The notes beneath the pieces were generated by a model. That model searched no databases. It had not been told where the DNA came from and saw only the letters and a list, made by a program, of their open reading frames with translations. A stretch of 46,485 nucleotides of DNA from an uncultured marine group III euryarchaeote (lineage in GTDB: Archaea; Thermoplasmatota; Poseidoniia; MGIII; CG-Epi1). How positions within the stretch are numbered: the stretch's first letter is position 1; every line of letters begins with the position of its first letter. Location of the stretch: positions 1-46,485 of the forward strand of contig CACALG010000003.1 in assembly GCA_902533295.1 (NCBI GenBank), in the 5' to 3' direction. Of the stretch, positions 28,325 to 42,763 are shown in pieces. The position numbers and the translations under genes were made by a program.

Positions 28325-29170
28325 TCAATCTTCAACTTGCCTAGCTAAATAACCTCTAGAAAATAATGTCTGAAGAACTGCCCAAATCATAAAGAAGACT
28401 AAAACTGATAAGGCTTGACCATAAATTGTGTTAAATTCTATAGAATTACTAAAACTGTAAGGAAGCAATTCACTTAGGAAATCATGGAATAAGAATGCTA
28501 CAGACGTTAAGGCAGTAGTCAAAGCCAAGGTAACTACCAAAGTAGTCAAAAACCATTGTAAAACAGTCTCATATTCTTTTGAATAATACATAACTCTTGC
28601 TAATCTACTATAGCGAGTGTGCCCATAGCTTAATTCAATAAATAGCATAAATGAGAAAACAAAACCCAAAATTGGATAAATCTGATCATTAGTATTTCCT
28701 GACAAACCAAGTGGCATAACCAATACCAAAAACGCGGCAACAATCTGATTTCCGATATAATCCTGCCATATACCTACAAGACCTATTGATATAGGTAAAC
28801 CAATCCAAAGCCAAAGAAATAATTGTTGAGTTACTTGATAAGGAAATGCATCAAAGTTCCTAATATCTGCAACAAATATTAATATAACCGAAAGAAAAAT
28901 GAAAAGCATTGTATAATCATAAACTTTCTTATTAATACTCAAGAAAATAAATGATGTGCCACTAAAAAGTCCAACTATCATGCCTGCTACTGCTGAATTA
29001 TTTAATTTTGAAAGAACCTCATCACCATAAATTCCTGAAATTATACTATCTAATGCCTTAAAGAAAAGTGAATCTTCCATAGGGTTGATAACGTATGCCA
29101 AACCAAGACTAAACATCAATGAGAAAGTTGCGACTGATTGCATCAATGACAAACTATTATTTGTATTCAT
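28325..29170 (-). CDS. Polytopic membrane protein of the MoxR-DUF58 unit
   Basis: Last gene of the six-gene run, 281 residues, with about seven hydrophobic segments and little extramembrane sequence. I do not recognise the family. The frame is open up to 29221, but ATG 29170 overlaps the DUF58 stop as TAATG and gives the sensible start MNTNNSLSLMQSVATFSLMF. Its position suggests a membrane component of the same system, perhaps scaffolding DUF58. Confidence 0.75.
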   Translation of the reverse strand: MNTNNSLSLMQSVATFSLMFSLGLAYVINPMEDSLFFKALDSIISGIYGDEVLSKLNNSAVAGMIVGLFSGTSFIFLSINKKVYDYTMLFIFLSVILIFVADIRNFDAFPYQVTQQLFLWLWIGLPISIGLVGIWQDYIGNQIVAAFLVLVMPLGLSGNTNDQIYPILGFVFSFMLFIELSYGHTRYSRLARVMYYSKEYETVLQWFLTTLVVTLALTTALTSVAFLFHDFLSELLPYSFSNSIEFNTIYGQALSVLVFFMIWAVLQTLFSRGYLARQVED

Positions 29171-30417
29171 TAACGAATCACCTCTGCTAATGATGTTGAC
29201 AGAACATTTTCGGGATCCCAACGCATAGCTCTTGCCCCAAGAGACCTAGCCTCTGTAATTTTATTATCAAGAGATGCTGATGCCGTAAAATATACTGTTG
29301 GAGAAATTATGCGTGATTCTCTATCATAATCCAAGGTATCTGGTGCTATTACCGTTAATTTGAAGCCTCGGGCTGTTATTTCTCTAAGAGCATTGGTACT
29401 AGTTGGATCATTTTCAAGTGTTGAAAGAACCATAACTGGTGAACGAGGCGTGAAATTACGAAGATCACCAAGGACTGTATGAAGTCCTAAAGAACCTCCT
29501 GCCTTTACTTCAGCTAAAGCTGTTAAAATACGATACAGATGCCTTTCTCCCGTATCTGGTGAAATCACATTTACCGTTTCCCCATATATGGTCAAACCAA
29601 CCCGATTACGTGCTCTCAAAAAGAAACTAGTTAAGGATGCTGCAGCTCTGCAAGAATAATTAAGAGGATTGCGCAAAATTGTTCCAGTTCCTGAAATTTC
29701 CCTTGCATCAAGAACAAACATAATGTCTGAAATATCTTCTCTTTCAAACTGATTTACCATCAATTTTCTTGTACGTCCAAAAACCCTCCAATTAATGTTC
29801 TTAAAATCGTCTCCTGGAAAGTACTCACGAATTCCATAAAATTCACCACTAGTTCCAATACGTCTTATTGGCATAGCTCCTTGATACATTTTTGGAAAAT
29901 CTGTTGAAAGGTCTATACCTTCTATCTGCTCAATTTGAGGCAATACAACTAAGCTAGATTTTGATTCAATATCTGCTTCATAATAAAATAAAAATGAAGG
30001 ATTATAAATTCTCAAACTAGGATTGCCAAGCCTATATTGTCCTCTCAAACGACATTCAAGATGATATTTGTTAACTACTAATTCATCTTTTTTAAGCCTA
30101 ATTATAGTGTGATTAGAACCGTTATTTACTTCAACTTCCGAAGGTAAGTTATCATATATTTCTAGAAACCCAACTGAACGTCCTTTATTCTGAATTATTA
30201 AATCAATTGTAACATCACTATTTTCAAAAACTTGATCTGATTCAAAACTCCTAGTTATTTTAACATCAATGGGTCTTGTATTGACTAAACTGTGAACTGC
30301 AACAAAACCAAGAATAGTGGTACCTAACAAAAAGAGTTGAAGATTATTTATAAATGGGGAAAAAAGAACTAAGATTGTACCAAGGCCAACATATACTACG
30401 GCCTTACGAGTCCACAT
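29170..30417 (-). CDS. DUF58 (vWA-like) membrane protein
   Basis: A 415-residue protein: two hydrophobic segments at the N-terminus (about 5-45), an extended beta-rich domain (about 50-170), then the DUF58 signature REYFPGDDFKNINWRVFGRTRKL (around 195-218) and the vWA-like strand SDIMFVLDARE. DUF58 proteins almost always pair with MoxR AAA+ ATPases, as here with a 7-base gap. The vWA-like domain may be the substrate adaptor of the ATPase. The cytoplasmic placement of the domain follows from the two-helix hairpin. Confidence 0.93.
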   Translation of the reverse strand: MWTRKAVVYVGLGTILVLFSPFINNLQLFLLGTTILGFVAVHSLVNTRPIDVKITRSFESDQVFENSDVTIDLIIQNKGRSVGFLEIYDNLPSEVEVNNGSNHTIIRLKKDELVVNKYHLECRLRGQYRLGNPSLRIYNPSFLFYYEADIESKSSLVVLPQIEQIEGIDLSTDFPKMYQGAMPIRRIGTSGEFYGIREYFPGDDFKNINWRVFGRTRKLMVNQFEREDISDIMFVLDAREISGTGTILRNPLNYSCRAAASLTSFFLRARNRVGLTIYGETVNVISPDTGERHLYRILTALAEVKAGGSLGLHTVLGDLRNFTPRSPVMVLSTLENDPTSTNALREITARGFKLTVIAPDTLDYDRESRIISPTVYFTASASLDNKITEARSLGARAMRWDPENVLSTSLAEVIR

Positions 30418-30424
30418 TTTCTTA

Positions 30425-31411
30425 TTATTCCACAGTAACAGCAGGAACTTCTACTGTCATTAATAATTCAGATAGAATTTCTTCAACCTTAACACCACGA
30501 ATACGTGCTTCAGGTTTCAGAATAACTCTATGGCCAAGAACAGGTATTGTGGCTCTCTTGATGTCATCAGGAACTACATAATCCCTACCAGCTAAAACTG
30601 CCAAAGCTCTTGACAATTTGAATAATCCCAAACTTCCACGTGGACTTGAACCAACTGCGACTCTAGGATCCCTACGTGTTGCTTGAACTAAATTTACAAT
30701 ATATCTCATTACTTCTTTCTTAACATATACTTCTTCAACAGAATCATGCATTGCCACTACTTTTTCCGGTGAAGCACGAGCTTTAACTGTAAAAGAATCC
30801 TTCTTACGTTCTGAACGACCTTGAAGAATGCCAGTCTCAACTTCTTCATCTGGGTAACCAACACTCAATTTAATCAAAAATCGGTCCATCTGAGCTTCAG
30901 GTAACGGATATGTTCCTTCATACTCAATAGGATTCTGTGTTGCAAGAACAATAAATGGTCTTGACAATTTATGCGTTGTCCCTTCAATAGTTATTTGCTT
31001 TTCTTGCATTGCCTCAAGCAAAGCTGCCTGTGTTTTAGGAGGTGCACGATTTATTTCATCAGCTAACAAAATATTACAAAATATTGGCCCTTCTCTGAAG
31101 GTGAATTTGTTCTTTTCAGGATCATAAAAATAAGAACCTGTAATATCTGCAGGCAATAAATCAGGAGTAAATTGAATTCTTTTGAATACGCAACCTAATG
31201 CATCTGCTAAGGTATTAGACATCAAAGTTTTCGCCAAACCTGGAAAATCTTCGAATAAAATATTACCGTTAGCTAGAACTCCAGCCATAACCATCTCAAT
31301 GGTCTGTTCTTTGCCTAATACAACATTGGATACTTCATCAGTTATAGATTTAGCTGCTTTATTTGCATCCTCAATTGATAGGTTACTTTTTTTGTTACTC
31401 AACTTTACCAC
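30425..31411 (-). CDS. MoxR-family AAA+ ATPase
   Basis: A 328-residue cytoplasmic AAA+ protein of the MoxR group, thought to act as a chaperone for assembly or maturation of protein complexes. Walker A is FEDFPGLAKT (53-62, K61), Walker B LLADE (115-119), sensor 1 N160, and the arginine in MDRF (R177) belongs to the family's PLPEAQMDRF signature. A lid with SPRGSLGLFKLSRALA follows. The start is GTG at 31411, overlapping the DUF4350-like gene by 7 bases. It sits between that gene and DUF58 in the six-gene run. Confidence 0.96.
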   Translation of the reverse strand: MVKLSNKKSNLSIEDANKAAKSITDEVSNVVLGKEQTIEMVMAGVLANGNILFEDFPGLAKTLMSNTLADALGCVFKRIQFTPDLLPADITGSYFYDPEKNKFTFREGPIFCNILLADEINRAPPKTQAALLEAMQEKQITIEGTTHKLSRPFIVLATQNPIEYEGTYPLPEAQMDRFLIKLSVGYPDEEVETGILQGRSERKKDSFTVKARASPEKVVAMHDSVEEVYVKKEVMRYIVNLVQATRRDPRVAVGSSPRGSLGLFKLSRALAVLAGRDYVVPDDIKRATIPVLGHRVILKPEARIRGVKVEEILSELLMTVEVPAVTVE

Positions 31412-32706
31412 GCACTCAGTTTTTTAGCAATGTTCCGAAGGTCATTAGGACCTAGCTTAGTAGGGGCACCAAGGAGCATCTTAAAATCATCATCTAAGGG
31501 TATATTATAACTTTTAACCAGGCTTGGAAGTAGTTTCAGCCTACCCTTCCTAGATTTTTCATCGAACTCGTAAACTTGATATTTTAACCTTATGCGCTCT
31601 AAAAGAACTTCTTGTAAAGCAAGAATTCCTGTATCTAAATTATGGCCATAAGAACGGAAAGGTCTTGGTTTGCGAATGTCAAAAATATGGAACCAACGAT
31701 TGGGCTCAGGTTGTCTGAGAGACAACGCCATAGTTAGAATTATAACTGCCACTAATACATTTAAACGAATAATCTGAAGGATTAATGTGTCTCCTGATAA
31801 AAGAAAATAAAATCCTAAGGCCGCTTGAAATAAACTAGCTCCAAATGATTCTTGTGTATGCCTAGACTCATCGAACAATACCACACCGTTACTTCCAATC
31901 ATTGATTTTACTAAATTAATTAGAAATTGTGAATTCTGACCTTCATTCCACATATTATTGATTGGTAAACTAGAATCAGATATGAAAACTGCAGAACCAA
32001 GTGGGTCTCCCATAGAACGCATGCCACAACGCATACCTAAGGTGAAACCGGAAAGTGGGGCTACTTCATCTTCTGGCGTTATAGCACCATCATCATCAGA
32101 ATCAATCCAAGAATTACTAGATGTAGTCATAAAAACATTCCGAGTCCACTCGAAACCTGTGCTCCAGAGATTTACTTCTTGAGTATCTAATGTCTTAATT
32201 GCTACAGGTTCATTCAGAAGTACACTATAGGACTGATCATCTACAAAAGCAGTAGTTTCTATCAAAGAAACATTACCTTTGTAATTTCTATCCCATAATT
32301 TATGCTTAACATATTCTATTGCAAATAAATCTGCTATTGTATTGGAATAATCAAAATCTCCAAATACAAGAATACTTCCGCCTTTCTCCATAAAACTTAC
32401 AAGGATTTCTAATTCAAGAGTTGTATAGGGAGATTCAGTACCTGCAATTACTAGTAATGTTGATGAGGGATTACTAACTTCGTCTAAGACTGCTGGATTT
32501 GACAATATAGCGCTTACATTGTAGGATGTCTCTGGTTCATTCTCAAGAGCTTCTCTAAAATTAGATATGTCATTCCAATCATCATCATAAGCCGATAATT
32601 GGGGATCCCTTTCAACAACTATTTGTAAAAGAGGGAATAGAACAAGTGTACAAACTGTGATTGTAGCAAATAAAATGAGTATCCCTGAACGGCTAGAAAC
32701 GTCCAT
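31405..32706 (-). CDS. DUF4350-like membrane protein
   Basis: A 433-residue protein: one N-terminal membrane segment (about 9-28), an outward GATase-like domain with STLLVIAGTESPYTTLELEILVSF and GGSILVFGDFDYSN, the FDESRHTQESFG block, a second membrane region (about 295-330), then a basic C-terminal cytoplasmic domain. That arrangement fits DUF4350 proteins found beside MoxR and DUF58 in haloarchaea and some bacteria. The last two codons of the upstream transglutaminase gene (GAGGAG) also form a Shine-Dalgarno sequence 5 bases from this ATG, so the two are coupled. Confidence 0.85.
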   Translation of the reverse strand: MDVSSRSGILILFATITVCTLVLFPLLQIVVERDPQLSAYDDDWNDISNFREALENEPETSYNVSAILSNPAVLDEVSNPSSTLLVIAGTESPYTTLELEILVSFMEKGGSILVFGDFDYSNTIADLFAIEYVKHKLWDRNYKGNVSLIETTAFVDDQSYSVLLNEPVAIKTLDTQEVNLWSTGFEWTRNVFMTTSSNSWIDSDDDGAITPEDEVAPLSGFTLGMRCGMRSMGDPLGSAVFISDSSLPINNMWNEGQNSQFLINLVKSMIGSNGVVLFDESRHTQESFGASLFQAALGFYFLLSGDTLILQIIRLNVLVAVIILTMALSLRQPEPNRWFHIFDIRKPRPFRSYGHNLDTGILALQEVLLERIRLKYQVYEFDEKSRKGRLKLLPSLVKSYNIPLDDDFKMLLGAPTKLGPNDLRNIAKKLSAW

Positions 32707-32707
32707 G

Positions 32708-35700
32708 TTACTCCTCTATAATTTCACTAGTTGTATCCAAACTCTCAATAATAGTTCTAAGCGATGAAACTGCATTAAGCCTGTGATCATCATCTAAACT
32801 TTTAGTTGTATAATCTGCCTCTTCATAGAGTAAAGTTAGATTAGAAACGGAAGCATGATTCAATGGCAATGCTTGTTCCAATGCCTTCTGGAATTCTCTA
32901 ACTGTTTCAAAATGTTGCCTTAGATATCCATAACCTTGCAATATTTTACACATTTCCTTATACGAATGAACTACTGAATCTCTATAGTCCATATTAGCCT
33001 CCAATGCTAAAGCCGTAGATTCTAAGATTCTTCTTATCTCTCTAAGATGTCTATCACGATACCATTTCCAACCTAGCATTACACCTGAACCACCAATCAA
33101 AGTAGCAGCCAATACTATCCACAAAGAATAGTTTGATGCTTGTGTAGGTGGCCTGTAAATAATTGTAGATTCAACTTCATTACCAAGATAATGTTCATCT
33201 CCAGTGTAAGTTACCTTAACATTCACAGGAACTGATTCATTACCTGAAAAAATTGACTGGAAAGTAGCAGACCCGTTAGAATCTGTAATAACCATAGAAG
33301 TGACACCATTTGGTTGGAATGCAACCAACAATGGAGCTCCTGACACAGGACTGCCATCAAGTGTTTGTAAAGATATATGACCTGAATATGCTTGTTGATA
33401 TTCTAAAGTACTTGGAATAGAGAGAATAATTTGTGTCTCTCCCATAATAAATATTCTAGATTCAGTCGAATTTAAGTGATATTCATTATTACCTGCAAAT
33501 GTAACTGACAAATTGTGATATCCTAAAGTCGTCCCGAAAGGAACTTCTAGAGGTATAGTGAATTGACCATTGCTATCAGTTACTCCATCAATCGGAAGAA
33601 ACTCTGAATCTGGAAGGAAATTAGAATTCATTACTAATCTAACATTTAGTCCTTCAATTGGCCTATCTGCTTTGTCGTATACAAACCCTGTGATTGGAAT
33701 AGTAGAATTCAGTAGACCGTCAAATTCATCCATCTCAATTCGCGTATCATGTTTTACTTGAATCATTAATATTGATGATGAAGGTAGATAAAATTCCTCT
33801 GCGACATATTGAACTGTTACTGTGTTCGCTCCAGCTTCTGTGTAATGTGGAACCATATATTCATGAGAGAACCGTCCATCGCTGTCTGTCAATAATGTAT
33901 CAACGTATTGACCATGGAAAAGGAAGTTAAGATTAGTACTCAATGGATTGCCTACGTCATCTACTATTCTTCCGTTGAACCCAAATGAATCCCCAACAGT
34001 AACTACTGATTTGTCTGAATCAAGACTAATGAATGTTTTTGCAATAACTGCTATTGATTGATCGGTTGAGGTAGGAAGATAATACCCCTGACCATTGAAC
34101 GCCCATTGTGCAGTATACAATCCAAGAGCATGATTGGAGGAAAGTGTAATATTCTTTACAACATAGCCCTCTGAATCTGTAAACAATTGATATGTTGTGC
34201 CTACAAAGGTAACATTTATTGGCTGATTAGGCATAGGATTGCCAAGATCATCAATCAAATATCCTGTTAAGTTAAATTCTTGTAAGCGGAAAACTTCTAA
34301 AGATTCAGTAGTAAAGAAAGTATGAGCTAAAATCTCAGAATCAACATCATTCTCAGATGATAAATATAGGTATGAACCCTCAAAAACAATAGCTACATTG
34401 TGAGGTCCTAACTCCGTATTCTTATCTGTAAATAGATCATAAGAAAAAATGCCTGATTCACCAGTAGTCACATTTCCTACATATTCGCCATCGAAATAAA
34501 CATCAAGCTGATGATTTGGTAATCCAACTCCAACAACGTCACGAAGATAGCCTGAAACTATAGAACTGGAATTTCTAAAGCCTCCAAGCCATTGTACAGT
34601 GACCTCAGTTTCACGCATAACTAAAATTTCAGTATCATCAGAAGAACCTCTAAGGAAATTCTGATCATTAATCAATGCTGTCAGAGTATGATTTCCTGCA
34701 ATAGTATTTGAAGGGACAACAAAAGTACCGCTAAAATCACCATTAATTGAGTTTACTTTAGTTCTAGTTATTCCATCCCAAAGAATCGTGACTTCACGAT
34801 CTAATGGAATTTGTAAGTCATTCTCTATAAATCCTGTAAAAGTTACGTTTTCACCAGCAACAACTATACTAGATGAATCTGTAATCGTAATATTTGTATG
34901 TCCCCAAATGGTATAATTTGCAACAAAAGTGGCTGGGAGATAATAGCCAAAACCTCCAAATGAAAGTTCCACTGGAATAACACCAACTGGATGATTTGAA
35001 TCTGAACATGAATTATCTTCAGGACAAACAAAACTAAAAGTTCCATTTGAATCTCCCGTAACTCGAGTTAGATATTCATCATCCCAGAATACATTTACCT
35101 CTATTTCTTCAACTGCTTGGCCTCTGTCATCAAATATAGTTCCATTAAACCAAACAGTTTCTCCTCTAATTATTTCAAGATCTGGAAGATTAATAATTGT
35201 TTCTGAAACTACTGTAAACTTTACAGTTTTGGATGCATTATCATAGTATGGTGCTGTAGTATTATCAAAAAATACTTGAACGTCTACTTTACCAAGAACT
35301 TGGGCATTTGGTACTAAATAAGTCTTAGAATATGAACCACCAAAATTAGTTGTTGATACCTCATCTAACGTGTTTTCGCCCCAAATAAATGATAGATCAA
35401 TACCTGCAATACCTAATGATGTCTCATCTCTAGCAAAACCAGTCATTGTAATCTCAGAGTCTCTCAGAACTTGTTGTTCTTCCATAGTCAAGAAAACTTT
35501 TCTGTGAAGATAAACGTCAGTATTAGCCAAATCTTCTAAGTTATAATCAGCTTCATTATACTTAATTTCAATCGTATGAACACCGACATCTAAATATGAT
35601 GAATCTGGCGTATATTCAAAACTAAAAGTACCATTTGTTTGGAAGGATTGAAGGTAATTGCCATCAAAATAAATTGCTAAAACTCCTGGTAGCTGAGTGC

Positions 35701-38700
35701 CATTATCGAAAGTAAGGCCACCACTAAGAATCATACTTTCACCAGGATAGAAGTGCACATTATCTGATTGAACTGAAACAATTGATTGTTGAAATATTAA
35801 GGATGTTTGTGATTCACTAGAGCCTGAATGAAGATCATCACCTGCAAATTCAGCAGACCATGTTAGGTTTCCTAATTCGTGAGTAGATGGAATACTATAT
35901 GTGTAAACAAAATCTCCATCTAGTTCTGTAGTGACTGTTGCTATTGAGACTCCGTCCCATAATAGATTTACACTCTGTTCTGAAAGTGGCTGACCTAAGT
36001 GATCTTGAAGTTCACCTTCCAAAGTTACATTCTGGCCTCTAGTAAGCTTAAGTGAATCATCATCAAGCTCTATCGAACTTGTTCCGAGAACCGTGAAGTC
36101 TAGATTAACACGCTCATCAGGTAGTGTAGCACTTTCACTATTGAAAGTAACAATTATTGTGTAATTTCCTGCTGCTAAATCTGTTGGAATAAATGATTGA
36201 GTAGTCCAGTTAATTTCAGCGACACTGAATTGAGTTAGTTCAAATCCTGCAATTTCAATGGTAATAGTTCCATTCGATATTGCTACATTGTCAACAGTTC
36301 CATTAACCCAAAATTGATTACCTATGTATTCTTTTGAAGGAGAAAGTTCTGCAGTTAGATTAACTGTTGATTCAAGTATAATTAAACTTGCAGTTTCCTC
36401 TGTCTCATAGAGGTATGTTGATCCTCTAAAAAGAGACTCTATAGTATAACCATCATCTGCGTCAGGTTGCCCTTCTTCAGGTACAGTCCAACTAAAAACA
36501 AAATTTCCAAGTTCATCTGTTGTTGTAGTTCCTATATCACACCTAAATCGATTATCTCTATTACAGCGATTAGGGTTCCAGTGTTTTGGAGATTCCCAAA
36601 TTTCAAACTCGATCTCTTCTCCTTCAACAGGTACTCCACCCAAATCCAGTAGACTTCCTGAAATTACTAATTCTTGGCCTTTACCTACAGATTCTGGAGT
36701 ATTAAGTACAAGACTAGTAGATGAAAATACTTCTATTTCTTCAGGTCCATCAACACCCAAGAAACCTTGTTCATAGGATGCTGCGTAAATTTCATTCACT
36801 CCAGGCAGAGCCACTAAAAAGTCAGTTATATTAAAATCAAAATTACCTGAGGAATCTGTTAATGTTTGACCTATCTCAAATGGAGGTTTAGTATGATCCT
36901 TGTCCCACATACCAAATCCAATATTGAAATCAGGTAAACGCGTGCCATTTTGATTCTCAGCATAGCCAATGATTCGAATCGTTTCTCCTTTGTCTACTTC
37001 ATCATCGGGTGTAATTTCTGTAATTACTATCGTAACAGCCTCTCCAGTCATATTGTCAATGTCATCAGGATCCATTTCATCAAAATCAAAAGTATCTCCC
37101 TCATCTTCGTCTTCATCAGGTCTATCTAATGTGTTACTAGTTCCAGTTCCACCTAAATCAATCCTCTTCCAATGACTTGCTGAGAATGTTTCGTTGTCCT
37201 CTGGAACATAAACCTCAACAAAGGCATGAGCCTCATTAGAAACATATCTAGTCGGAGCTCCTAATGCTAATGCAGTAACAAAGAATCCAAATGAACGGTG
37301 TCTACAGGCACCAATTCCATTTATACAAATGGATTGATAAACATCCCAAGGTTCCTCTGCATCTGGAACATCTCCATCACCTTCAATAAAAGCGGAAAAG
37401 TACCATGTTAGATTATTAATTATTAAAGCTAAATTAGTTTCTGGAGTTCCATTCTCTGGCCAGAGCCAATAAAGTGGTTCATTTGCAATCGTACCATTGT
37501 CATGCTTGTATTGTAAAAAATCCTTCACATTTTCCTTAACTTGATTTGCTCCATTAATTGGCCTTATTGCTTCTTCAGGAAGGTCATCAAGTGTTAAATC
37601 ATCTGAAATAGGTCTATTGAAATACGAACCATTGGTGCCCATTCTATATTTCAAATCTATTACTATATTTTCGCTACCTTGAACATAGTAATTATCGGCC
37701 CCATCCTTGAAAAAACTGATAGTTACGCCAGTAGCATTCGGATCATAATCTATAATATCTGCATCAGGAGAAACTGAAGGAATTCTGGTATAATCGCTGG
37801 TAGTTACCTCGATACCCATCCATATCCAACCTTCAAAAATGTTTGAATAACCTTCATAATTTGTTGGGAAAATCTCATACTTATCAGAATCATAATTGTA
37901 CATTGTATACATTTGATTAGGATCCGAGGCCTGATCGTCGTAAAGTAATCCATCCATAGCATTCCATCTTTTAGCAGTGCCAAGAACAGGATCAAAGATT
38001 TCGTAAATCGTTACATTACCATCTGTGGCACCTGTATCTGGGTTACCTTCATCATCATCTCCAGGATCGACTGGTGGAGGATCTTCACCGTCTGGATCTC
38101 CATCATCATCACTATCTTCATCACAAGGATCTGTCCCTTCTTGATACTCTCTGAGATTGTCAGAACCATCACCATCAGGATCATCGAACTTGTCACTACC
38201 ATCAGTTGGATTCAGTCCACAACCATCAACTCTATCTGAGTAGAAATCCTCCCAACCATCTGGCATCCCATCCTGATCTGTGTCAGCATTGAAAGGATCT
38301 GTGTCCCAATAAAATTCAAAACTATTTTCAAGTGAATCACTATCAGAGTCTAATGAATCATCTGAAGAATTACGTGGATTAAAACCATAGTAGACTTCCC
38401 AACCATCCCAAGCTCCACCATCATCTGTATCTTCATCATTAGGATTAGTATTATTGTGATACTCTTCTAAATTCGTATACTTCTCTTCATCTGAGATTAC
38501 TCCATCTCTATTTGCATCATATCCATCACCATCATTGTCGTCATCACTATCTGGATCATTGGGATCAGAAGCACTAACTGGTAGGGTTGCTAATGGTGAA
38601 ATAAGCATTAGAGCGACCAAAAACAATGCCAATATCTTCTTCGCAAACACTTTCTCACCTACGCGTAGAATTCCGGCTCTTTGTAAATAAAGGTATTGGG

Positions 38701-38713
38701 CTGAATTATACAT
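32708..38713 (-). CDS. Giant secreted transglutaminase-like protein with Ig-like repeats, membrane anchor and DUF4129-like tail
   Basis: A 2001-residue protein read from ATG 38713, which overlaps the upstream stop as TGATG. A signal peptide (about 25-50) leads into thrombospondin-3-like acidic repeats (about 52-215), then a transglutaminase-like domain with C470 (GACRHRSFGFF), H496 (EAHAFVEVYV) and D519 (KRIDLGG) as the triad. An acidic linker near 535-565 follows. Next come about 13 Ig-like repeats of about 90-95 residues (pattern: G-x-x-L-x-D-x-x-G-x-P then a DSNG turn and a Y-L-P end). A membrane helix (about 1862-1884) precedes a 115-residue cytoplasmic tail with SYKEMCKILQGYG and FETVREFQKAL, resembling DUF4129. 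Confidence 0.88.
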   Translation of the reverse strand: MYNSAQYLYLQRAGILRVGEKVFAKKILALFLVALMLISPLATLPVSASDPNDPDSDDDNDGDGYDANRDGVISDEEKYTNLEEYHNNTNPNDEDTDDGGAWDGWEVYYGFNPRNSSDDSLDSDSDSLENSFEFYWDTDPFNADTDQDGMPDGWEDFYSDRVDGCGLNPTDGSDKFDDPDGDGSDNLREYQEGTDPCDEDSDDDGDPDGEDPPPVDPGDDDEGNPDTGATDGNVTIYEIFDPVLGTAKRWNAMDGLLYDDQASDPNQMYTMYNYDSDKYEIFPTNYEGYSNIFEGWIWMGIEVTTSDYTRIPSVSPDADIIDYDPNATGVTISFFKDGADNYYVQGSENIVIDLKYRMGTNGSYFNRPISDDLTLDDLPEEAIRPINGANQVKENVKDFLQYKHDNGTIANEPLYWLWPENGTPETNLALIINNLTWYFSAFIEGDGDVPDAEEPWDVYQSICINGIGACRHRSFGFFVTALALGAPTRYVSNEAHAFVEVYVPEDNETFSASHWKRIDLGGTGTSNTLDRPDEDEDEGDTFDFDEMDPDDIDNMTGEAVTIVITEITPDDEVDKGETIRIIGYAENQNGTRLPDFNIGFGMWDKDHTKPPFEIGQTLTDSSGNFDFNITDFLVALPGVNEIYAASYEQGFLGVDGPEEIEVFSSTSLVLNTPESVGKGQELVISGSLLDLGGVPVEGEEIEFEIWESPKHWNPNRCNRDNRFRCDIGTTTTDELGNFVFSWTVPEEGQPDADDGYTIESLFRGSTYLYETEETASLIILESTVNLTAELSPSKEYIGNQFWVNGTVDNVAISNGTITIEIAGFELTQFSVAEINWTTQSFIPTDLAAGNYTIIVTFNSESATLPDERVNLDFTVLGTSSIELDDDSLKLTRGQNVTLEGELQDHLGQPLSEQSVNLLWDGVSIATVTTELDGDFVYTYSIPSTHELGNLTWSAEFAGDDLHSGSSESQTSLIFQQSIVSVQSDNVHFYPGESMILSGGLTFDNGTQLPGVLAIYFDGNYLQSFQTNGTFSFEYTPDSSYLDVGVHTIEIKYNEADYNLEDLANTDVYLHRKVFLTMEEQQVLRDSEITMTGFARDETSLGIAGIDLSFIWGENTLDEVSTTNFGGSYSKTYLVPNAQVLGKVDVQVFFDNTTAPYYDNASKTVKFTVVSETIINLPDLEIIRGETVWFNGTIFDDRGQAVEEIEVNVFWDDEYLTRVTGDSNGTFSFVCPEDNSCSDSNHPVGVIPVELSFGGFGYYLPATFVANYTIWGHTNITITDSSSIVVAGENVTFTGFIENDLQIPLDREVTILWDGITRTKVNSINGDFSGTFVVPSNTIAGNHTLTALINDQNFLRGSSDDTEILVMRETEVTVQWLGGFRNSSSIVSGYLRDVVGVGLPNHQLDVYFDGEYVGNVTTGESGIFSYDLFTDKNTELGPHNVAIVFEGSYLYLSSENDVDSEILAHTFFTTESLEVFRLQEFNLTGYLIDDLGNPMPNQPINVTFVGTTYQLFTDSEGYVVKNITLSSNHALGLYTAQWAFNGQGYYLPTSTDQSIAVIAKTFISLDSDKSVVTVGDSFGFNGRIVDDVGNPLSTNLNFLFHGQYVDTLLTDSDGRFSHEYMVPHYTEAGANTVTVQYVAEEFYLPSSSILMIQVKHDTRIEMDEFDGLLNSTIPITGFVYDKADRPIEGLNVRLVMNSNFLPDSEFLPIDGVTDSNGQFTIPLEVPFGTTLGYHNLSVTFAGNNEYHLNSTESRIFIMGETQIILSIPSTLEYQQAYSGHISLQTLDGSPVSGAPLLVAFQPNGVTSMVITDSNGSATFQSIFSGNESVPVNVKVTYTGDEHYLGNEVESTIIYRPPTQASNYSLWIVLAATLIGGSGVMLGWKWYRDRHLREIRRILESTALALEANMDYRDSVVHSYKEMCKILQGYGYLRQHFETVREFQKALEQALPLNHASVSNLTLLYEEADYTTKSLDDDHRLNAVSSLRTIIESLDTTSEIIEE

Positions 38714-41637
38714 CAATTATCTGCCTCAAATCCGTCGCTCATTCCATCGTCATCTGTATCAGGATCCCAAGGATTTGTTTGGGCTTCTTCCTCACGCCAA
38801 TTAGGGAAATTGTGCCAAACACCCTCCCAATCTTCCCAACCATCATTATCATAATCAAGAAAACCATCAACTGAATCTAAAGGATTCAAGGTTCGTGTTT
38901 CATTATCAGGTCTGTTGTCATTCCAATATATTTCCCATCCATCAGTACAGTTATCGCCATCAGTATCTGCCTTAACGGGATTAGTGTCCATCAAAAATTC
39001 TTCATAGTTAGTAAACTTTTCATCCGGTGATAATTCACCGTCCCTATCTGAATCATAACCATCGGCATCTGAATCCCAGTCCCTGTCATCTGCCGATCTA
39101 GGATTTAGACCATAATAGCCCTCCCAACCATCAATCATACCATCACCATCTGTATCATTATTATTTGGGTCTGTACCATTCAAATACTCTTCATAATTTG
39201 TAAATTTCTCCCACTGTTCAATAGTACCATTTCTATCGAAATCCCAACCGTCATTATCTAAATCTGTTTCACCATCACTTGGGTCGAAAGGATCTAAACC
39301 ATGTAACAGTTCCCAACCATCTGGCATACCATCTCCATCTGAATCAGGATTTGAAGGATCTGTGACATAACCATCTTCTCCAAAAACGCATTCCTCTCCA
39401 TCACTAATGAGATCTCCATCCGTGTCTCTCAGCAAAGGATTCGAACCTGTTATGTTATCCATACTGTATACATTTTCCACAAAACCATCTACACGTGAAT
39501 TATCAAATTCATACAAATTTATTAATGAATCATTATCGGAATCATCGTTTGCATCGCTAGAATTTAATGGTTGAAGATCCCAATAAACTTCCCAACCGTC
39601 TGACATACCATCGCCATCTGTATCTCCATTTGTTGGATCTGTACCATTCCTATATTCATACAAATTAGCATATAATTCAAATTCTGTTACATTGTCATTC
39701 CAGTCTGCATCAAAACTATCTCCATCTAAATCAAGCAATGCATCCTCAGGATCAAGAGGATTTAATCCATATTTAACTTCCCATCCATCTGGCATACCGT
39801 CTCCGTCTGTATCACTTACTGTAGGATCTGTCAAATGAATGAACAATTCTTGACCATCTAACAGTCCATCACCATCTGTATCATTATTGTTTGGATGTGT
39901 TGTAGTTATATTATCAACTTCAATGTAAGGGCCTGCTGCCGTGTTATTGTACTCAAGTCTATTGATTACTCCATCATTATCTGTATCATAATTAGCATCT
40001 AAAGGATTCAGAGGGTTTAGACCGTAGAGCCATTCCCACCCATCCAGCATTCCGTCAGCATCAGTATCTGCAATGTAGGGGTGTGTATCTGCTTGAAATT
40101 CTAGTAAATTGTTGTGTTCTTCATCTTCTTCTAAAGTTCCATTGTAATTTGCATCAAAACCGTCTTCATCATTATCTACAGTCGAATCATAAGCATCAAG
40201 AGGATTCATATTGTAATAAACTTCCCAACCATCCCACATTCCATCACTATCTGTATCATTATTATTTGGTGCAGTATTATTCATAAATTCCTCAAGATTA
40301 GTATATTTTTCAGACTGAGTCACAAATCCATCACGATTACTATCATAACCATCGTTATCATAATCCTGATTGGCGTCACCAGAATTAGTTGGGTCCAAGT
40401 TGTAATAGCCTTCCCAACCATCTGGCATACCATCGCCATCTGTATCATTATTGGTAGGGTCTGTGCCATTAAGATATTCTTGAAGATTAGTGAACCACTC
40501 ATCACTAGTTATGTTGAAATTATAGTCGAAATCCCAACCATCATTATCTAAATCCTGATTTGCATCCAAGGCTGAAATTGGATTTAATCCATATTTCACT
40601 TCCCAGCCATCAGGCATACCATCTCCATCTGTGTCATTGCTTGTTGGATCTGTCAAATAATTGAATAACTCATCATTGTCTGAAATTGTATCTCCATCTG
40701 TATCATTATGGTCAGGCCTTGTAGTGAAGATTCCATCATTATCAACCCACCCTGTGTTGACTAAACTGTTATTATATTCATAAACATTAACAAGAGAATC
40801 TCCTTCTTTATCCTCAAAATTATCTGAAGGTCTTAAAGGTTCCAAACCAAAATAAACTTCCCAGCCATCATGCATCGTATCTCCGTCAGTATCTTTCAAA
40901 AGAGGATTAGTATCATTATAATACTCCATGTAATTGAAGTATCTTTCCTCATATTCTAATTCTGAGTTGAAATTGGAGTCCCAACCGTCTGCATCAGAGT
41001 CATACCAAGCATCTGCTGAAACCAAGGGATCTAGGCCATAATATAATTCCCAACCATCTGGCATCTTATCTCCATCTGTATCAAACTCCCAAGGATTGGT
41101 GCCTGCTAAATATTCTTCTAAATTTGTATGTTTTTCTTCTGAATTTACGTATGTATCTCGACTGGCATCATACCCATCTTCATCTCTATCATCATCTGCA
41201 TCAGAAGGTAAATGTGGATTAAAATTGTAATACACTTCCCATCCATCAGGTATTCCATCATCATCTGTATCCATGTCCGTTGGATCTGTACTATTTCCTA
41301 CTACTAAATCCATTTCATATTCCATTAAATTAGTGAAATATTCTTCAACTTCTAGAATTCCATTTCTATTCCTATCATGACCATCACCGTCTTTATCTAG
41401 TGAAGCATCGGAAGCATCATAAGGATCTAAACCAAAATCCATCTCCCACCAATCCGGCATTCCATCATTGTCACTATCTTTAGTTGGCAAATTTGAATCA
41501 GTAGTTGCAGACTGTGCATCGATATGTTGTGATGATTTGAAGGATACGAGAGGAGAAAAAGGCAGAGCTGCAAGTAGCATTATTACAACTGCTAAGACGA
41601 CATAGCGTCGACCTCCACTGGGAACTGGGTCTGCCAT
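38713..41637 (-). CDS. Secreted thrombospondin type 3-like repeat protein
   Basis: A 974-residue acidic protein with an N-terminal membrane segment or signal (about 11-30) and then almost nothing but repeats. Thirteen units of about 62-67 residues and a partial fourteenth carry the core DTDGDGMPDGWEVYYGLNP, a spaced D-x-D-x-D-G-x-D calcium-type loop, and a TNLEEYLNGTDP end. Repeats 4, 8 and 10 are followed by an extra 23-30-residue half unit containing the core-like DTDGDxxxDxxE. No catalytic domain or clear C-terminal anchor is visible. It probably is a calcium-stabilised rod on the outer surface. It is the first gene of the six-gene run. Confidence 0.9.
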   Translation of the reverse strand: MADPVPSGGRRYVVLAVVIMLLAALPFSPLVSFKSSQHIDAQSATTDSNLPTKDSDNDGMPDWWEMDFGLDPYDASDASLDKDGDGHDRNRNGILEVEEYFTNLMEYEMDLVVGNSTDPTDMDTDDDGIPDGWEVYYNFNPHLPSDADDDRDEDGYDASRDTYVNSEEKHTNLEEYLAGTNPWEFDTDGDKMPDGWELYYGLDPLVSADAWYDSDADGWDSNFNSELEYEERYFNYMEYYNDTNPLLKDTDGDTMHDGWEVYFGLEPLRPSDNFEDKEGDSLVNVYEYNNSLVNTGWVDNDGIFTTRPDHNDTDGDTISDNDELFNYLTDPTSNDTDGDGMPDGWEVKYGLNPISALDANQDLDNDGWDFDYNFNITSDEWFTNLQEYLNGTDPTNNDTDGDGMPDGWEGYYNLDPTNSGDANQDYDNDGYDSNRDGFVTQSEKYTNLEEFMNNTAPNNNDTDSDGMWDGWEVYYNMNPLDAYDSTVDNDEDGFDANYNGTLEEDEEHNNLLEFQADTHPYIADTDADGMLDGWEWLYGLNPLNPLDANYDTDNDGVINRLEYNNTAAGPYIEVDNITTTHPNNNDTDGDGLLDGQELFIHLTDPTVSDTDGDGMPDGWEVKYGLNPLDPEDALLDLDGDSFDADWNDNVTEFELYANLYEYRNGTDPTNGDTDGDGMSDGWEVYWDLQPLNSSDANDDSDNDSLINLYEFDNSRVDGFVENVYSMDNITGSNPLLRDTDGDLISDGEECVFGEDGYVTDPSNPDSDGDGMPDGWELLHGLDPFDPSDGETDLDNDGWDFDRNGTIEQWEKFTNYEEYLNGTDPNNNDTDGDGMIDGWEGYYGLNPRSADDRDWDSDADGYDSDRDGELSPDEKFTNYEEFLMDTNPVKADTDGDNCTDGWEIYWNDNRPDNETRTLNPLDSVDGFLDYDNDGWEDWEGVWHNFPNWREEEAQTNPWDPDTDDDGMSDGFEADN
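38716..41540 (-). repeat. Coding tandem repeats, about 63 residues (about 190 bases) per unit
   Basis: The repeated amino-acid motif is clear, while the DNA copies are diverged, so slippage is old or selection acts on protein. The best-kept nucleotide block encodes DGMPDGWE (for example near 39320, 39790, 40425 and 40610). Related acidic repeats continue into the next gene, around 38090-38560. Confidence 0.85.
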
Positions 41638-41659
41638 ACTAAGTCAGTCTAGAACTGGG

Positions 41660-41668
41660 CTATAAAGG
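41660..41668 (-). promoter_or_regulatory. TATA element of the six-gene surface unit
   Basis: CCTTTATAG on the minus strand lies about 26 bases before ATG 41637. No comparable element appears at the later gene junctions, which supports one long transcript. Confidence 0.5.
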
Positions 41669-41674
41669 GTTCAT

Positions 41675-42763
41675 TCATAGTGGTAAAAACACCAGATCAC
41701 GAGGTAAAGTAGTCAAACTTAAGGCAGTATCTTGTTCTAAGTAAATATCATCCTCAATTCGAATACCTCCCAAATTTGGTATATATATTCCAGGTTCTAT
41801 AGTAAAAGTCATACCTTCTTTCAATACAAAATTGTTATCTGGTTTAATGTAAGGTTCCTCATGAATCTCAAGGCCTAAACCATGCCCTGTCCTATGTGTA
41901 AAATATTTTCCAAAACCTGCACTGTCAATAATTTCTCTAGCTGCATTATCTACTAATCCTGCTTGAACTCCTGGTTTCGCTAATTTTCTTGCTGTAGAAT
42001 TGGCATTTTTGACTGCATCATAAGCGCTCTGAAGTTTAGAATTTATCTCATTCCCAAGTGCAAATGTTCTAGTTATGTCAGAAAAATATCCTTCATAATT
42101 GGCTCCCCAATCAATAATGATTAGATCACCTTTCTCAAATTCTTTATCAACTGGAAAATGGTGTGGATTAGCTGCATTAATTCCAGAAGCAACTATTGGA
42201 GAAAATGGTAATTCTGACTCTGAACCGTTTCGAAGCAACTCTATGACTAAGTCTGAAGCAAACTCTTTCTCAGTAATGCCTGGTTTTATTTTATGAATCG
42301 TGGATTCTAATGATTTCTGTGCAATCTCAACTGCCTTAACCATACATTCTTTTTCTTTTTTGGATTTTGTCATTCGTAGTTGAGCAAAGACATCAATTAC
42401 ATCAACAAATTTTGTAGCAATATTTGTTGTCTGTAATAAATCTAATTCAAGATGGCGTATAGTTCTTGATTCAATACCTAATTCTGTAAAATTGATGTTA
42501 TCTGAAAATTGCCTAAAAGCTTTGTTTGGCCCATCTTTGTCATCATAAGTAATACAATCTGCATCTAAACCTAAAACTTTAGCGCTTTCTAATTCAGGAA
42601 GAATAAAAGTTGATTTATTTTGTTCAATAATAAGAACAACGGGCCTCTCACTCAAATGGAATTTGGTTCCTGTAAGATATGACATATTAGGACCTGGAAC
42701 TACAGCTAAACCTGAGATTGAATTTTCTTGCATCAGTTTTCTCAGCTGTTCAATATTATTCAT
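41675..42763 (-). CDS. pepQ: M24 metallopeptidase, Xaa-Pro dipeptidase/aminopeptidase
   Basis: Cleaves peptides at Xaa-Pro bonds in the cytoplasm. The 362-residue protein has the creatinase-like N-terminal domain (about 1-125) and the pita-bread catalytic domain with all five metal ligands: D218 (IIDWGANY), D229 (FSDITRTF), H294 (GHGLGLE), E323 (TIEPGIY) and E337 (IRIEDD). The H201/H202 pair in NPHHFP is the usual substrate histidine region. Its end is close to the TATA element of the surface unit. The start ATG 42763 is about 25 bases from a TATA-like sequence shared with the divergent nuclease gene. Confidence 0.94.
   Translation of the reverse strand: MNNIEQLRKLMQENSISGLAVVPGPNMSYLTGTKFHLSERPVVLIIEQNKSTFILPELESAKVLGLDADCITYDDKDGPNKAFRQFSDNINFTELGIESRTIRHLELDLLQTTNIATKFVDVIDVFAQLRMTKSKKEKECMVKAVEIAQKSLESTIHKIKPGITEKEFASDLVIELLRNGSESELPFSPIVASGINAANPHHFPVDKEFEKGDLIIIDWGANYEGYFSDITRTFALGNEINSKLQSAYDAVKNANSTARKLAKPGVQAGLVDNAAREIIDSAGFGKYFTHRTGHGLGLEIHEEPYIKPDNNFVLKEGMTFTIEPGIYIPNLGGIRIEDDIYLEQDTALSLTTLPRDLVFLPL

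Follow-up and report, generated by a model that had tools for sequence, protein, structure and literature searches.

We identified a cluster of six genes that we read, with moderate confidence, as an envelope-spanning device for the assembly or remodelling of the cell surface. It lies in a window of 46,485 nucleotides, which is contig C3 of a 0.86 Mb genome (65% complete). The reading is supported by the computed gene order, the domain order, the conservation of the catalytic residues, a fold match, two conserved promoter-like boxes and relatives in which rod and enzyme are fused; the topology, the docking of the parts, the control by the ATPase, the substrate and the reaction are what we infer. 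A first-pass annotation of the same DNA had already tied an outside enzyme to a cytoplasmic MoxR-DUF58 pair and proposed a surface-assembly system. Both proposals are supported here, and the second had been predicted before for DUF4350-MoxR-vWA-Ig operons (PMC5898192). The features are:

41660-41672, minus strand: P1, TATA-box-like element GAACCCTTTATAG before the rod gene (column conservation)
38713-41637, minus strand: rod gene, 974 aa, TSP3_bac in Pfam
38684-38696, minus strand: P2, TATA-box-like element ATACCTTTATTTA in the rod-enzyme spacer (column conservation)
38655-38659, minus strand: Shine-Dalgarno-like GGTGA (GGTGA, GGAGG or GGTGT at the equivalent place in orthologues)
32708-38650, minus strand: giant enzyme, 1980 aa from GTG, the most likely start
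37082-37846, minus strand: transglutaminase-fold domain of the enzyme (255-residue model and fold match)
37304-37306, 37226-37228 and 37157-37159, minus strand: catalytic residues Cys449, His475 and Asp498, respectively (orthologue alignment)
33161-37018, minus strand: stalk of Ig-like repeats in the enzyme, with approximate limits (Big_3_5, CarboxypepD_reg, Big_1 and MG-type matches)
33071-33127, minus strand: membrane helix of the enzyme, residues 1842-1860 (hydropathy and charge)
32756-32962, minus strand: DUF4129 tail of the enzyme, predicted to be cytoplasmic (PF13559, just over the cut-off)
31405-32706, minus strand: DUF4350 (GldG-like) membrane protein, 433 aa (PF14258, E=7e-12)
30425-31411, minus strand: MoxR AAA+ ATPase, 328 aa (AAA_3, E=1e-63; AAA_lid_2, E=7e-23)
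29170-30417, minus strand: DUF58 protein, 415 aa, with an N-terminal membrane hairpin (PF01882, E=2e-18)
28325-29170, minus strand: membrane protein, 281 aa from the ATG at 29170, about 7 TM helices, travelling with the module

Reading the open reading frames of the 28325-41668 region gave six ORFs on the minus strand, with the coordinates and the common direction assigned to them in the first-pass annotation. For the lower five genes the 7-base overlap at 31405-31411, the TAATG at 29170 and the short gaps were also correct, and Pfam matches bear out the identities that had been proposed for the DUF4129-like tail, the DUF4350-like protein, MoxR and DUF58. The DUF4350 protein has an N-terminal TM helix plus a TM region near residues 295-326. 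For the 7-TM membrane protein we obtained no match in Pfam or NCBIfam. PADLOC matched none of the six proteins and we therefore rejected a role of the cluster in anti-phage defence.

For the gene order in relatives, on which the first-pass annotation had made its reading depend, we compared the MoxR neighbourhoods in G001-G003, G005-G009, G012, G014, G015, G018 and G019. The order rod, enzyme, DUF4350, MoxR, DUF58, membrane protein was kept in 13/13 relatives with enough contig (14 loci); the contig end cuts the rod in G009, an assembly gap falls on the rod-enzyme junction in G002 and the rod frame is split in G019. Those orthologue contigs that carry a name belong to Marine Group III (MGIII; CG-Epi1, CG-Bathy1 and others), which supports the assignment of the window to this lineage of the Poseidoniia. 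Purifying selection was strong on all six genes, with dN/dS values of 0.01-0.12 against close relatives. In another genus (L059, L060) the transketolase gene downstream lies on the opposite strand and thus the unit ends before it. Two operon copies were found in G015 (L058 and L039/L082). The diverged copy (L039, L082) has a MoxR with 73% and an enzyme with 35% identity and a rod of 1281 aa, and its downstream gene context is the window's own; the MoxR of the second copy, on a separate contig, is 93% identical. This MAG has 6% contamination, and of the two copies the one with far greater similarity to the window's genus may come from a contaminant contig.

The start of the enzyme and the transcription of the cluster had to be revised. 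The enzyme had been started at the TGATG at 38713, giving 2001 residues. That frame contains stop codons in L048, L052 and L055, and the orthologues have a common start codon, with GGTGA or GGAGG ahead of it, ∼62 nt past the rod stop. The ATG of the TGATG is therefore not the conserved start, and in the window the enzyme most likely begins at GTG 38650. A single promoter-like element at 41660 had been reported as well, serving one transcription unit. This element, P1, is invariant in 13/13 columns across 9 sequences compared to 4/24 columns in the remaining spacer, and its TTTATA is located 29 nt upstream of the rod ATG, a spacing of the leaderless type. Between rod and enzyme we detected a second conserved box, P2, with 12/13 columns invariant across 10 sequences compared to 4/49 in the remaining spacer; its TTTATT is located 41 nt upstream of the enzyme GTG. 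The two boxes contradict a single promoter for all six genes, and thus the rod and the five-gene enzyme module probably have a promoter each, though read-through from rod to enzyme may occur. As two promoters permit separate regulation of rod and enzyme, they may count against the two forming one device. An M24 peptidase gene (window 41675-42763, same strand as the rod) ends 37 nt before the rod ATG, and transcription running from it into the rod is possible.

From the N- to the C-terminus the enzyme is composed of a signal peptide, TSP3 motifs, the transglutaminase-fold domain, the Ig-like stalk, one TM helix and the DUF4129 tail. The TM helix is flanked by six K/R on its C-terminal side, and judged by hydropathy and charge the stalk would be outside and the tail inside. 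Like the TgpA type, the enzyme has a C-terminal DUF4129 behind a TM helix. Pfam found no TgpA_N (several N-terminal TM helices) in the window enzyme, which starts with a signal-peptide-like helix only.

Applied to the whole enzyme, Pfam did not call a transglutaminase domain. The excised window domain matched Transglut_core (PF01841) with E=0.0097 and 16.6 bits, below the curated cut-off of 23, and 16/21 family members matched it at E≤0.01 (best 7.6e-9). The model of the 255-residue domain, computed on a more diverse alignment, reached a pLDDT of 82.6 and a pTM of 0.75. Its best PDB fold matches in Foldseek were 3isr (1.2e-5) and the periplasmic domain of TgpA (6g49, 1.9e-4; also 6g4h), and the next were peptide N-glycanase and LapG (E 0.026-0.048 for the latter). 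TM-scores of these matches were modest (∼0.35), so the fold call leans on the Foldseek probability, the motif conservation and the Transglut_core matches within the family. A profile search for the domain against PDB sequences returned nothing significant. A 361-residue model that included an Ig domain was dropped, with a pLDDT of 61 and only Ig-like or chance matches in the fold search. As modelled, the domain is a divergent transglutaminase-fold domain that matches the periplasmic domain of TgpA and is a predicted enzyme. The transglutaminase of the first-pass annotation thus holds for the fold and for most of the family and fails as a Pfam call in the window protein; the TM-scores and the sub-threshold Pfam score would count against the device reading.

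In the alignment of 14 orthologues the Cys and the His were invariant, as were the motifs GACRHRSF and NExHAFVEVY. At the third position the window has Asp, whereas most other orthologues have Asn, so the catalytic triad proposed earlier is conserved at two positions and varies at the third. Across the phylum we found relatives of the domain in 18/390 genomes; the His and the LGG motif are retained in this wider set and the Cys is missing only in L130. The giant of family f8 (L122, 5032-6015, minus strand; L123, 7569-8309, plus strand) carries two transglutaminase-type domains, and the second, which has lost the Cys (GHGGHRS), looks like a pseudoenzyme. In papain the third catalytic residue is Asn. 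The Asn of most orthologues would therefore suit a cysteine protease sensitive to calcium, by which surface proteins are trimmed or set free, as LapG does on the LapA adhesin, and such a role would also agree with LapG being among the next fold matches and with a calcium-binding rod encoded next to the enzyme. We consider this explanation unlikely, since TgpA and 3isr are better fold matches than LapG and the third residue in the window is Asp.

The core of the cluster also occurs elsewhere in the Thermoplasmatota. Using profiles built from the families, we found DUF4350, MoxR, DUF58 and the membrane protein adjoining the enzyme in f12 (L124) and f16 (L128). MoxR and a DUF4350-like ORF are also beside the enzyme in L125 and L131, and MoxR-DUF58 adjoins it in f4, f21, f15 and f31; the f8 enzyme (∼2500 aa) has no MoxR nearby. 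In Marine Group II DUF4350-MoxR-DUF58-membrane protein is present without the enzyme. A separate rod beside a MoxR-linked enzyme was seen only in MGIII. This distribution bears on a second explanation, in which DUF4350, MoxR and DUF58 form a secretion or pilus-like machine that moves or assembles the rod, with the enzyme as an accessory. A secretion system has been predicted from DUF4350-MoxR-vWA operons that also encode Ig-like S-layer proteins (PMC5898192), but for the present cluster we find this quite improbable, since outside MGIII it is the enzyme that stays with the operon core and not a separate rod, and since Sec export should suffice for a rod and an enzyme that both have signal-peptide-like N-terminal helices.

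We compared the cluster with known systems. For TgpA of Pseudomonas aeruginosa transglutaminase activity has been measured, and its gene shares a transcript with PA2875 and PA2874 (PMC3507681). This operon, PA2875-PA2874-tgpA (MoxR-DUF58-TgpA), and the MGIII locus both encode an outside transglutaminase-fold enzyme with partner genes. The window domain fits the TgpA structure, and a second MGIII operon has Transglut_core, a partial TgpA_N and DUF4129. Unlike TgpA with its multi-TM anchor, the MGIII enzyme has a long Ig stalk, TSP3 repeats and one TM helix; the window domain is of a divergent subfamily, and the MGIII locus adds DUF4350, the membrane protein and the separate rod. Makarova et al. 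(2015) described archaeal DUF4350-MoxR-vWA-Ig/S-layer operons (arCOG01314) as a predicted secretion system (PMC5898192). Like these, the cluster unites DUF4350, MoxR, a vWA/DUF58-type partner and Ig-like surface and membrane proteins in one operon, the Ig-like surface protein being represented by the stalk of the enzyme. Transglutaminase has 0 occurrences in the main text of that paper, whereas in MGIII the surface role is taken by a giant transglutaminase-DUF4129 protein and a TSP3 rod. The Bifidobacterium PFNA cluster (pkb2, fn3, aaa-atp, duf58, tgm) encodes a large secreted FN3 protein (PMC8430577) and thus likewise combines a large secreted repeat protein with MoxR, DUF58 and transglutaminase, so a surface partner built of repeats is not in itself a new theme. 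It differs from the MGIII locus in being bacterial, in having FN3 instead of calcium repeats, in its kinase, phosphatase and FHA genes and in that DUF4350 is not named for it. For transglutaminase or TSP3 surface proteins of MGIII or Poseidoniales the searchable literature, with few subscription papers, held nothing relevant. The core is a known kind of gene set, and the split giant rod-and-enzyme architecture is undescribed in the searchable papers. What sets the locus apart is a divergent enzyme on a stalk, the fusion of DUF4129 to a giant and the split rod.

The 974-residue repeat rod of the first-pass annotation was confirmed at its position. It starts with a signal-peptide-like helix, followed by ∼30 DxDxD (TSP3-type) calcium motifs, and contains 259 D+E compared to 34 K+R; hydropathy gave no C-terminal anchor. 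Across two genera its orthologues show 64-97% identity and, in nearly all genomes, a length of 969-976 aa where complete, with a dN/dS of 0.03-0.07. In its near-constant length and low dN/dS the rod is unlike a variable adhesin. Its repeats matched the NCBIfam models CglD (E 6e-50) and MtsD (E 6e-48), with scores far under the curated cut-offs (170/400 and 164/800 bits, respectively). Both are TSP3-repeat surface proteins of gliding and cell-cell cohesion, and the likeness of the rod to them is confined to the repeats. The rod repeats also resemble the N-terminus of the enzyme (46% identity over 141 aa). Among 12 rod orthologues 0/11 Gln and 1/13 Lys were invariant compared to 77% of the Asp residues and 48% of positions overall, so Gln and Lys are the least conserved residues and together account for only 24 of 974. 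That the enzyme crosslinks the rod (and the S-layer) through Gln-Lys isopeptide bonds, as had been proposed earlier, would agree with the fold, the catalytic residues and the activity measured for Pseudomonas TgpA (PMC3507681), but with so few and so poorly conserved Gln and Lys we hold it to be very improbable and rejected the rod as crosslink substrate.

Rod and enzyme also occur as one chain. The giant of the second MGIII operon, P0001, is known from the G014 copy only; within 2660 aa it contains a partial TgpA_N (below the cut-off), Transglut_core, at least 15 TSP3 repeats, Ig domains and DUF4129, and DUF4350, MoxR, DUF58 and the membrane protein follow downstream. In most genomes the sequence of this giant gene consists of long N runs (L033, L047, L065, L079, L080, L083, L085, L086). 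The Marine Group II protein L133 (3028 aa) contains TSP3, Transglut_core, Ig, TM and DUF4129; its N-to-C order is that of the rod followed by the enzyme and its length is near their sum of 2954. Most Marine Group II genomes contain a pair of DUF4129 giants (∼2650 and ∼3000 aa; L132, L133, L134, L135). In the genomes read these giants are away from MoxR-DUF58-DUF4350 and hence the linkage is not obligatory. A 519-aa TSP3 protein (L132, 986-2545) beside one of them is a possible rod counterpart. Rod and enzyme together had been thought new, which no longer applies with single chains in the sister order and in the second MGIII operon. These chains suggest that rod and enzyme are parts of one device. 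Since TSP3 repeats look alike wherever they occur, the likeness between rod and fused chains is weak evidence when taken alone. In the DUF58 tree the main operon is apart from the second MGIII operon and Marine Group II and joins f12 (94/95), and a recent duplication of the two MGIII operons was rejected on this basis. The paralogues look old, though the tree has several weak forks and a long branch for f12.

In the surface device that we favour, the ATPase MoxR and DUF58 would act inside the cell as a chaperone pair on a membrane complex of the DUF4350 protein, the 7-TM protein and the DUF4129 tail of the enzyme. Outside, the TgpA-class Cys-His-Asp/Asn domain would be held far from the membrane on the Ig-like stalk. 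The secreted, separately promoted and calcium-stiffened TSP3 rod would dock on the N-terminal TSP3 repeats of the enzyme, and the docked pair would amount to the tower that related archaea make from a single chain. The ATPase probably governs how the outer enzyme is assembled or how active it is; this enzyme would modify other surface proteins via acyl transfer or cleavage.

Plankton of Marine Groups II and III are widespread and uncultured, and little is known of their cell envelopes. We tentatively raise the possibility that these Poseidoniia share very large surface towers of near-constant length as a class of their own, which would be driven from inside by MoxR-DUF58 and built from a TSP3 rod, a transglutaminase-fold enzyme, an Ig stalk and a DUF4129 tail, either in one chain or with rod and enzyme split into a pair. 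If true, energy from ATP would reach, through the membrane, an enzyme that sits tens of nanometres away from the cell. MoxR-DUF58-transglutaminase sets, most of them unexplained, are common in both bacteria and archaea. Split and fused versions offer natural evidence on the target of these sets, which would be an outer enzyme-bearing structure linked inward by the DUF4129 tail, and the cores conserved outside MGIII offer a way to a testable system. Marine Group II also has a second MoxR (L041, L069 and others), which lies without DUF58 beside an IF2-type GTPase and a ParA-type ATPase.
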